A stretch of 64,000 nt of DNA from Cristatella mucedo (taxonomy: Eukaryota > Bryozoa > Phylactolaemata > Cristatellidae): the NCBI GenBank assembly GCA_009760855.2, contig WPIO01000032.1, positions 246,001 to 310,000 on the forward strand, given 5' to 3'. The notes under the pieces were generated by a model. That model searched no databases. It saw only the letters and a program-made list of their open reading frames with translations, and was not told the DNA's origin. Shown here piece by piece: positions 10,101 to 13,179 of this stretch (positions within the stretch are counted from its first letter, which is position 1; every line of letters starts with the position of its first letter). The translations under genes and the position numbers were made by a program.

Positions 10101-11611
10101 GCTGTGCACCTAAAGCACGACTCAACGGTCTGTCTGAGCCGCCCCGACATTTTCTGCGGGTGCAGGTTCTTGCAGGGGGCGTGAATAACGTCTCAGCCCA
10201 GCAGCAGCTCAATATGACTCGGGTTGTGTGTCATTGTGCAAATGTCAGGTCCACAAATATAGTATTTATTCGTTGTGACGCTACCCGAATTTGTGAGGGC
10301 TAGTCGGGCGTAACATTATTGAGTAGTATTCATAGAAGTCACCCTGTCCAGGTGCCTTAAACAAGCATTTTAGTTTACATTATTGCAGAGTAAGAGAATA
10401 ATGAATGGCCTATTTTATTGACAATGTGTCAAGAGTTTGCTTACACCCCATCAGATGCATTTTGGTATCATTTGTGCTTGGCCAATTTATCATGTCAAGA
10501 GCACAAAAATACTCCTTGGCCACGTCTGTTAAGATGTACGAGGCTTACAAAACATACCTCGGCATGCTTGTCGGTGATCAAGTAAAGCCCTGGGCATCTC
10601 ATTTCACATGTGAACAGTGCAAGAAAACTCTTGAAGGTATGGCGAATAGTTGCTGCTGGCTAGAGATAATTTCTTGCATGTTATGTTAAGTAATGTGTGA
10701 AATATATTTTTTTAATTAATAGAATTCTGTTGCGTTTACAGGCTGATATAGGCGAGAAAATACTGCTATGAAGTTTATTATACCAAGAATTAGACTGAAA
10801 CCGACTGGCCATTCAAGCAACTGTTGCTTCTCCATAGTGAACTCTTTCTAATGTCAAAGTGGTAAAAACCTCCCATAATGTATTGCCTCATTCCTTCATC
10901 CATCGCCCCAGTAGCACGTGCCCTGAACTACTCGTCCGGATACCAATCAGCTTCAGGAGAGAGCAGCAAGTCAGACAGCAAGGATGATATTCCAGATCCA
11001 TATTCCAATTTCAAAAATGTTTGGTAATGTTATGTATCTCCGTCTGTAACTCCACAAAGCCGAAAAGACTATGCGGGTGCTACGCAGGAGAGTAATCTAT
11101 AGCAAACTCACAACCTAAGCGGCTTTCGATACGCATTCGGTAGCCAACAGACTTCATCACACGCAACAAAGAGAAAGTAAGAAACATAATTGAGTCAGGA
11201 GAGCAGTTGAGGTAGTGAGTAGCATGGAAGTAGCAGCTCTGGACCGCTGGAAAGGATGTGCCATAGCAACAATAGAGTAGATGTGGCTGATGAGAGAAAG
11301 CCATATTTTCCCTCCAAGAAAGAGCTAAACGATCCGATCAGAGACCACCGTCTTACTAAGTCCATTGCTGAGCTTCTGATATCTATCCCATTTAGGCTTG
11401 AGGAGTTGAACTTGTTGGATAGAAGTGTGAAAGTAGAGTCCTGTACAGGAGAAAGCAGTGCCAACTGTGTGTGTGTATATATATATACACACACAGTGCC
11501 AACTGTGTGTGTGTATATATATATACACACACAGAGTTGGCACTGCTTTCTCCTGTACAGGACTCTACTTTCACACTTCTATCCAATAAGTTCAACTCCT
11601 CAAGCCTAAAT

Positions 11612-11684
<73 letters not shown>

Positions 11685-13179
11685 CCTGCAACTCGAGTGA
11701 ATATCGTGTATAAATACTGAAGTCATGCAGGGGCTTCAAAGCCATACTACTTTGTTAGAGTAATAAGTACCCATCTCGCCCTATTGCTCACTCTGTGCAC
11801 CTCAAAGAGGCCTACGCCAAGCAATAGAGGTTGCTGAGTGCCTTGAAGTATGACAACTATGGCTGTGAGGTTATCCACGGCTCCGAAATAGCATAATTCC
11901 TGATGAGCCTCTGAGGTGGTTTTACGAAGTTTCCGTGCATTCTTCGCCTATGGGTCAAGTGAGGCACTAATATGCACTGTCACATAAGGGTCTGGCCTCG
12001 GGGGACCGAATTCTCTGTTGGGAAGGACAACGAGTAGGAGTCACCGTTTGATCCTCGGACGGTGCTGATACCATCACTTCGCTTCAAGTTAGACTTAGCC
12101 AAGCAATTTGTCACTGTTCTAGACACCGAGGCAGCAGCTTTCTACTACCTCCTGAATGCCTTACCGCCACCGTCAGCGGCTGACGTCAGAGCTGCTAACT
12201 TCGTGATACACCAGGTAGAGGAGATCGTAATACACCGAGAAGCTGAATCTGACGGAGAAAGCGGGAAAGAAACAGTTTGGTGGCAGTGGTCTATATCCTT
12301 GATGCTCATCTTGACAAATTCAAGGAGAACATGGGAGCTTACTCAGATAAGCAAGGCAGGGGCTTTCATCATTGTATACTGAACCCAAGCGTCGCCATCG
12401 AGGGCAGTACAACGAAAACATAATGGGGACTATTTTTGGCAGCTTCTCCGAGAAAGGAATTTGCAGTATATCCACATTTCTATGACATCTACTCATTTCT
12501 CAACCCTTTCAGTGGTAATTTTTGTTTGACTTCAGAAAAATACATGTTAAACCTACGTATTAATTTTGATTCATTTGCTGTTCTTTCTACTGAATGCGAA
12601 GCAAAGGCGTTAATTTCCAAGTCTTTATATCGTAAGTGGGTTAATTTCAAGTTGACCACTGTCCTGGTCACAAAATTAAACTTTGTCGTGAATATTGACG
12701 AGTTTCTCTACTTCTAAGGCGTAAGAAATGAGGAAATAGCACCTAATGCCCAGGGCAAAGACAGTGCTGCATACTAAGGCCAGCGGTTCCTGATTTTCGG
12801 CCGTAGAAACCTCACACGCTGTCGTCAGTAATTAGTCAGTTGTGCTGCGGTTTCGAGCGGAGGGTGAGCTTCGTGACTTCTTTCGTCTGCAGACGCCTAC
12901 GGCCTGAGCGCCTCCACTGTGCAGTGGCTGCAGAGGAGGCGCACCGACGTGACCAGCGCTCTGCAGTCGTATCTGTCGGCGAGCAGCCCGTGCCTTGCAG
13001 CAGCCGACGCTGCCGCCGCGGCCGCGTCGACCACGACGGCAGTGCTCGGCGAGCTCCTGCTCATGCTGCCGGAGGTGAAACTGATGGCCGTCAAGCTCCG
13101 CGAGGTCGTGCAGGGCTGGTGCGACGACGGCCTCGTCCCTGCCAACTCGCTGCTACGCGAGCTGAGCTCGTCGCACTGA
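7004..13179 (+). CDS. Nuclear receptor, NR2-like, C-terminal ligand-binding domain (5'-partial)
   Basis: Three exons (7004-7111, 9560-9713, 12893-13179) join with matching phases (0/0, 0/1, 1/stop) to give 182 residues of a nuclear receptor ligand-binding domain. Residues 3-17 carry the helix 3-5 signature (EQMKVIHSCWPDLLAL). Residues about 64-95 carry the helix 8-9 pattern (MKRVKLNNYHYACLEYL, then LLNPDAYGLS). A helix 10-11 segment (LGELLLMLPEVKLMAV) follows. The end, NSLLRELSSSH, resembles an AF-2 helix with its conserved Glu. The family binds DNA as ligand-regulated or orphan transcription factors in the nucleus. The wording is closest to NR2 receptors (TR2/TR4, COUP-TF, TLX), but the subgroup is not resolved. 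Zinc-finger and hinge exons were not found and probably lie before the window. Odd: an Ala/Thr-rich insert between helices 9 and 10. Introns are rich in repeats. Confidence 0.88.
7222..7386 (+). mobile_element. SINE-2, complete (tRNA-derived)
   Basis: An A-box-like TGGCCCACTAGGTAAGG and a B-box-like GTGGGTTCGATTCC are spaced as in a tRNA promoter. The body is GCAAGCGGTGGTGATAGCC and GTAAAGGCTCTTCTGTAGCT, and the tail AGGCTGTTTAATCAGCTAG. It lies in the nuclear receptor intron. It does not fold as a functional tRNA. Confidence 0.85.
8035..8092 (-). mobile_element. LINE-B 3' tail fragment
   Basis: TGTATAGCGCCCTCAGAGAAC followed by TCTCTTTCTAGACACTTGG is the reversed LINE-B tail hairpin with the CTAG variant. 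Confidence 0.65.
8328..8600 (-). mobile_element. LINE-A 3' fragment
   Basis: The 3' block (TGTATCTCTGTAACTCTAC) and CGTGAGATGAAGTCTGTTGG on the minus strand, as in the other LINE-A copies. It lies in the receptor intron. Confidence 0.75.
8617..8672 (+). repeat. Unnamed interspersed repeat, copy 2
   Basis: Same block as at 1275-1325 (GCGAATCCGGTTGCAAAACC). Confidence 0.6.
8702..8771. other. 70-nt hairpin, possible small-RNA precursor or foldback element
   Basis: GGGTTAATGCTCCCGTAG at 8702-8719 pairs perfectly with CTACGGGAGCATTAACCC at 8754-8771. An inner stem GGAAGGCAAA/TTTGCCTTCC closes a six-base loop, with one asymmetric bulge between the stems. Size and shape suit a microRNA precursor; expression is unknown. 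Confidence 0.6.
9560..9713 (+). CDS. Nuclear receptor exon (helices 6-9)
   Basis: The acceptor ATTTTGCAG ends at 9559 and the donor GTAAGG starts at 9714. The exon is 154 nt and ends in phase 1; its last G joins AC of the next exon to give Asp. It encodes the YHYACLEYLTLLNP stretch, the typical helix 8 sequence that precedes D-x-x-GL in NR2 receptors. Confidence 0.88.
9728..9797. repeat. (CA)n-rich microsatellite
   Basis: Interrupted CA/ACAGACAC repeats start 15 nt after the nuclear receptor donor site. Confidence 0.9.
11027..11270 (-). mobile_element. LINE-A 3' fragment inserted in the FHQD pseudogene
   Basis: It begins with the LINE-A 3' end block (ATGTATCTCCGTCTGTAACT) and continues through the conserved segment with GCGGCTTTCGATACGCATTC, as in the copies at 1843 and 31875. 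It interrupts the pseudogene between the PYSNF and KPYFPSKKELND segments. Confidence 0.75.
11385..11613. repeat. Large near-perfect inverted repeat with a TG/TA/CA centre
   Basis: Arms of roughly 80 nt (about 11385-11467 and 11533-11613) are reverse complements with at least one mismatch (ACTTGTTGG against CCAATAAGT). They flank a centre of TG, TATATA and CA runs. The left arm is coding sequence of the FHQD pseudogene (the LEELNLLDRSVKVES stretch), so the right arm is an inverted duplicate of it. It would fold into a long hairpin in RNA or a cruciform in DNA. Confidence 0.85.
11613..11683. repeat. (TA)n microsatellite
   Basis: About 35 uninterrupted TA units begin immediately after the right arm of the inverted repeat. 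The FHQD coding match resumes just after it. Confidence 0.95.
12893..13179 (+). CDS. Nuclear receptor terminal exon (helices 9-12)
   Basis: The acceptor TCGTCTGCAG ends at 12892. The first two bases complete the Asp codon, and the frame then runs 94 residues to TGA at 13177-13179. The exon is much more GC-rich than the preceding exons. An Ala/Thr-rich linker replaces the usual short loop, and helix 12 reads LLREL. Confidence 0.88.

Follow-up and report, generated by a model that had tools for sequence, protein, structure and literature searches.

Results

A family remnant in a nuclear-receptor intron

In a 64-kb stretch of the Cristatella mucedo genome (contig WPIO01000032.1, positions 246,001 to 310,000 of the forward strand; hereafter the window, whose own numbering is used throughout), an intron of a nuclear-receptor gene houses the remnant of a repeated DNA element, at about 10244-12776 and in sense orientation relative to the receptor. 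The initial annotation of this stretch had described a decayed gene of one uncharacterised family, the FHQD family, lodged with an intron of its own in a nuclear-receptor intron, and the location held: when the upstream exon (9560-9713, plus strand, donor GT from 9714) and the downstream exon (12893-13179, plus strand, its reading frame running through the stop codon) are joined, they match nuclear-receptor ligand-binding domains in the PDB (best E 3.4e-6). As argued below, the remnant is with high probability a dead Chapaev3 cut-and-paste transposon.

When the window was searched with a 562-residue fish member of the family (P0001, Myxocyprinus LOC127440312; tblastn), four significant plus-strand stretches were recovered in order across 10429-12499. 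They cover residues 3-155 (10429-10977), 114-167 (10869-11015), 147-216 (11247-11435) and 249-562 (11675-12499), the first three overlapping in the query; their E-values, ranked, are 7e-50, 6e-31, 4e-10 and 4e-5, and the best match elsewhere in the 64 kb has an E of 0.76. This bears out the claim that ordered blocks of a single protein family lie here over some 2 kb. A composite read-through query of the window matched 59 proteins at E <= 1e-3 (best 1.7e-97, 43% identity); its frames were chosen by us, and the P0001 search is the cleaner test. Among the matches of the composite query, those with names come from fishes, a sturgeon, a lamprey, a frog and a single mantis shrimp, and the others from unnamed contigs, so the family is not one of invertebrates alone, as had been supposed. 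The fish protein P0001 and the mantis-shrimp protein P0005 are 82% identical, a degree of sequence likeness that would suit horizontal transfer; Chapaev3 elements are described as having passed between animal lineages (PMC4079192).

For P0059, 1931 relatives were counted, and 119 of the 120 listed carry no Pfam domain. Pfam gave nothing above the family cut-off for four pieces of the window, and no transposase model appeared in Pfam scans of 15 members or NCBIfam scans of three. Searches of viral contigs (with two alignments) and of genome contigs (with one) yielded no confirmed locus, and literature searches with the family motifs, the accessions and a broader query found no paper on the family. 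Pieces of the family also occur within two annotated proteins, P0043 (with Ig-like domains) and P0056 (named peroxisomal biogenesis factor 7 isoform X1); these are likely gene-model fusions or exonised fragments.

All parts of the remnant lie on the plus strand. A decayed 5' noncoding part (10244-10423) was delimited by DNA homology to other copies, which sets in at 10244 against one genome copy and at 10271 against the copy L018; the 5' terminus itself cannot be placed in the window, the alignment of 5' ends pointing to about 10075. Exon 1 (10424-10636; P0001 residues 3-69 by tblastn) begins at an ATG that matches the start-codon position of the family and has a single frame change near 10478. 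After the intron (10637-10741), the first part of exon 2 (10742-11019, tblastn) has several in-frame stops, and DNA homology to other copies ends at 11019 in several rows. The second part, with the ELNDPIRDHRLTKS block (11279-11435; tblastn E 4e-10), is followed by a gap in which P0001 residues 217-248 are unmatched and a palindrome and an AT run sit. The third part (11687-12286; tblastn E 7e-50) holds the HSVHLKE, GGFTKFPC and subsequent blocks. A deletion of about 45 residues precedes the C-terminal blocks (12287-12499), which are spread over two frames by translation and alignment (tblastn with P0018 matches 12289-12471 in frame 1). The 3' noncoding part (12500-12776) is homologous to the copies L012, L024, L028 and L010 until 12741-12759 and closes with a decayed 3' inverted end, which the aligned 3' ends place at 12776. 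DNA homology to other copies thus exceeds the originally annotated span of 10480-12500 on both sides (from about 10244-10271 to 12759, or to 12776 by alignment), and a repeat at 11024-11266 and the palindrome with its AT run at 11379-11682 are not the gene.

Translations confirmed that the gene is dead, with several stops and frame changes throughout. Key residues of the family are replaced in the window copy (D263 by L, D317 by G, E512 by K, E515 by R, C339 by R and H493 by Y); judged by alignment, the three acidic positions are gone. Among the matches listed, the nearest genome relative of the window copy shares 71% identity with it across the first third. As a locus, this is an ordinary one, an old dead insertion in a receptor intron.

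An intron confined to one subfamily

The donor GT (10637-10638) and the acceptor AG (10740-10741) split a Gly codon that reads GGC when joined, and TGA follows where relatives have Trp, exactly the letters that had been claimed. In the metagenome protein P0004, translation continues through extra letters at precisely this codon, and in P0006, P0007, P0009, P0010, P0013 and P0023, also from metagenomes, unrelated letters run up to just before Gly-Trp, as would be expected from unspliced DNA. The annotated proteins P0001 and P0005 are uninterrupted across the site. In the genome search with P0001, 11 of 117 stretches stop at residue 69-72 and 10 of 117 start at 67-73.

We scored the intron site in 20 fetched genome copies and the window (n=21; the copies are not all independent, L013 and L016 being 99% identical). 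An interval of 84-105 bp is present in six of the 21; the site is altered or interrupted in three (L018, L020, L025), holds 0-4 bp in six (L009, L011, L015, L021, L022, L026) and is unscorable in six (L012, L013, L014, L016, L023, L024). The intervals align with one another among genome copies and are homologous. The sister proteins aligned in A2 show no insertion at this place, and the intron is confined to one subfamily, the others being without it. Members lacking the intron had been named by the initial annotation as a refutation. Intronless members do exist (six of the 21 copies, the sister proteins and perhaps P0008), and they belong to other subfamilies, each of these bearing its own transposon ends. 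Since they possess such ends, they do not contradict spread by DNA; they restrict the intron argument and leave the conclusion standing. By eye, one other repeat (...CTCAATCTCTTTCTAGGC...) was noticed in both L022 and L018, where it takes the place of the first bases of the former element and breaks up the intron of the latter.

Dispersed copies with common ends

Copies in the genome (572 Mb) number in the dozens and are scattered over many contigs. The search with P0001 (77 scored of 6067 candidates) returned at least 117 genome stretches, 112 of which have a stop inside; the remaining five are all shorter than 100 residues. With the DNA of L022, a sister element, 74 genome stretches were found, of which 19 start at its bases 10-13 and 22 finish at 2171-2183.

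Ends were analysed in 20 copies, all of the intronless sister subfamily (both ends of 17 L022-like copies together with L009, L011 and L022), against two 12-nt motifs, CACTGGTCTGCA and TGCAGGCCAGTG, which we picked from the same alignments. At three mismatches or fewer, 14/20 5' ends and 18/20 3' ends match, against a fraction of about 0.01 of shuffled ends in each case; at four mismatches the counts rise to 16/20 and 20/20, with a chance rate of 7% and a few placements doubtful. Next to these ends, TTA or TAA (TWA; background 5%) stands at the 5' flank in 10 of 16 sister copies, with A before it in 13 of 16, and at the 3' flank in 12 of 20, with T after it in 15 of 20. The two flanks are identical in 6/16 copies, and beyond TWA the flanks of different copies are mutually unrelated. 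Such ends and flanks suggest that the elements transposed, and the window's own subfamily would presumably have duplicated TWA as well.

In the window's subfamily, homology reaches about 350 bp upstream of the ATG and about 270 bp past the coding end. When the window and other rows of poor alignment are set aside, the majority letters at its two ends (from 6 of 8 rows and 5 of 10) make up an inverted repeat about 140 bp long, which starts CACTA and scores 108, compared with at most 40 in 300 shuffles. Of the inverted repeats that the initial annotation proposed to look for around 10.3 and 12.6 kb, clear counterparts are the ends of sister copies; in the window itself, the 3' end has decayed and the 5' end is unplaced. 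The homologous intron, the common noncoding parts and the transposon ends of sister copies together agree with the proposed spread by DNA. An additional intronless subfamily (L015 and L021, 80-81% identical to each other) differs in its 5' region and has its 3' end close to ACCAGT.

Conserved residues and predicted fold

Both Asp residues, the C(2)C pair and H(4)H are kept in 94/94 alignment rows, and H385, E512 and E515 in 93/94. By prediction, the family protein has the transposase core fold of RAG1, the antibody-gene recombinase, and of Transib, and would be a DDE transposase of that fold; E512 and E515 are both candidates for the catalytic Glu. The corresponding RAG1 residues we take to be D600, D708, C727, C730, H937, H942 and E962. 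At the N-terminus, a zinc finger is hinted at by weak zf-AD matches below the Pfam cut-off (P0059, 7.4e-6, 26.6 of 28 bits) and by a weak match of profile A2 to a ZAD chain in the PDB (E 0.42). Foldseek gave no match to viral structures at E <= 0.001, and a literature search on Chapaev3, RAG1 and AlphaFold returned no account of the Chapaev3 fold among the matches listed.

Sequences within the remnant that are not the gene

A genome search with the window DNA gave 45 matches (40 scored of 6276 candidates), of which 39 fall on the repeat at 11024-11266 (about 243 bp, plus strand). Its copies are 85-90% identical, and five of them were aligned. This high-copy repeat is foreign to the element; homology to other element copies breaks at 11019 and resumes at 11278-11279. 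A tRNA search of it found none. The same repeat stands beside or inside the copies L011, L012, L013, L016, L025 and L028.

Repeat finding also revealed a palindrome at 11379-11622, with arms of 117 nt (11379-11495 and 11506-11622) that are 97% complementary, followed by an AT run at 11615-11682; the left arm includes gene sequence. As identity between the surrounding element and other copies is 65-78% in most rows, the palindrome is probably younger than the element, or an assembly artefact. It possibly arose in a template-switch event.

Discussion

We consider it highly probable that the remnant at about 10244-12776 is an old, dead Chapaev3 cut-and-paste transposon of the two-exon branch that includes Merrow and Garfield, with a transposase of predicted RAG1/Transib fold, and very likely that the FHQD family is a Chapaev3 transposase. 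The function and mode of spread of the family, which had been left as unknown, thus find a candidate answer in the predicted fold and in the Chapaev3-type ends and TWA flanks of sister copies. We are also modestly inclined to a broader view, in which the family as a whole would be the transposase of Chapaev3, with the catalytic core of RAG1 as its basis, and a single small intron, gained once at one codon, would mark a branch that spread through fishes, lampreys, crustaceans and this genome, the intron having outlasted DNA-only jumps and changes of host.

The alternative that deserves most attention places the DNA transposon elsewhere in the wider RAG1/Transib/CACTA clade (CMCT), in a lineage separate from Chapaev3. 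In its favour, C(2)C, H(3-4)H and CA...TG ends with duplications of 2-5 bp are common to that clade (PMC12730594), Chapaev3 is known here by published description, and the exon-1 lengths differ (78 residues as published, 69 here). We nevertheless regard a separate lineage as unlikely, because the 3-bp TWA between A and T, the H(4)H with LH, the one- and two-exon branches, the length of about 560 residues and the lamprey and sturgeon hosts are all as described for Chapaev3 (PMC4079192). A decayed host gene, or a non-mobile tandem or segmental duplicate, might be suggested by gene annotation, where members appear as ordinary uncharacterized proteins and have an intron; the copies, scattered in their dozens over many contigs and sharing their ends while their flanks beside TWA are unrelated, refute this for the family and make it very improbable for the window copy. 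The idea of a processed, mRNA-derived copy in which the GT...AG interval is a chance insertion can draw on the sister subfamily without an interval. It is exceedingly improbable given that the interval is homologous among genome copies, that intron letters stand at the same codon in the metagenome proteins, and that 5' and 3' noncoding parts are common to the copies, the intronless ones also having transposon ends; a processed pseudogene was rejected for the homologous intron and the common 5' and 3' noncoding parts.

Several observations weigh against the Chapaev3 assignment as we have framed it. The CAC...GTG ends with TWA come from the intronless sister subfamily, the flank pairs differ in 10/16 sister copies, and in a copy-by-copy scan for inverted repeats none of ten single copies of the window's subfamily scored above its own shuffles. 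P0008, a protein from a metagenome contig, is uninterrupted across the intron site and may be without the intron. The link to RAG1 by sequence is not significant (hhalign E 0.24 and 0.079 against an alignment of 16 RAG1 proteins), and when the PDB was searched by sequence, neither RAG1 nor Transib was among the matches listed for P0001 at E up to 1 or for profile A2 at E up to 10. The Chapaev3 label was set on published descriptions, and exon 1 encodes 78 residues in Merrow and Garfield_BM (PMC4079192, most rows) compared with 69 here.

The gene of the element encoded a product of about 560 residues, with a zinc-finger-like N-terminal part and a core of predicted RAG1/Transib fold comprising a predicted DDE active site and a zinc site, the latter formed by C(2)C and H(4)H. 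In an intact relative, the enzyme would attach to the inverted ends and excise the element as DNA, and insertion at A-TWA-T would duplicate the three base pairs TWA. As cut-and-paste movement involves no spliced mRNA, the element would keep its intron when it moves.

Chapaev3 is an already-known kind of transposon, and the window copy an ordinary fossil of an old intronic insertion. The analysis contributes a likely identity for a protein family that had no model, predicts its fold and shows one branch to be marked by a fixed intron. The family is annotated as "uncharacterized" in many animal genomes and is likely a transposase with a predicted RAG1-like core; its identification would aid genome annotation and supply studies of how RAG1 arose with a diverse outgroup.

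Among known systems, Chapaev3, Transib, TransibSU and Chapaev have been grouped with RAG1 as one superfamily, and Chapaev3 is described with an N-terminal Chapa zinc finger (PMC4411706). The family resembles Transib and RAG1 in its predicted core fold, two Asp residues, a CxxC 19 residues past the second Asp, and H(4)H; it differs in that significant sequence similarity to them was not found. Transib and RAG-like elements make 5-bp duplications (PMC7204232), unlike the 3-bp TWA here, and on this ground Transib proper or a RAG-like transposon was rejected. SmTRC1, an animal CACTA-like TRC element of the same broad transposase clade, has CCC ends and a Transposase_21 domain (PMC1636069), in contrast to the CAC ends here and to our listed Pfam hits, which include no such domain; the TRC duplication is 2 bp (PMC4298943) and not 3 bp. 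CACTA/EnSpm was considered for the CACT ends, and Chapaev3 was preferred on its published description (PMC4079192).

According to that description, the ends of Chapaev elements are CAC...GTG, every Chapaev3 element examined shows a TWA duplication flanked by A and T, and the transposase motifs are C(2)C, LH and H(4)H (PMC4079192). Most other Chapaev3 elements have one exon; those such as Conan share ends, TWA flanks and motifs with the intronless copies of this genome, whereas the window copy has an intron. The closest likeness, drawn from published descriptions, is to the two-exon elements Merrow of lamprey (2,451 bp, 78+484 residues) and Garfield of silkworm (2,289 bp, 556 residues) (PMC4079192), from which the copies in this genome differ in being old fossils. 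The likeness extends to the TWA between A and T, the CAC...GTG ends, the C(2)C/LH/H(4)H motifs and the two exons, to size (2.3-2.45 kb and 556-562 residues, P0001 having 562), and to hosts, lamprey and sturgeon proteins being among the family matches.
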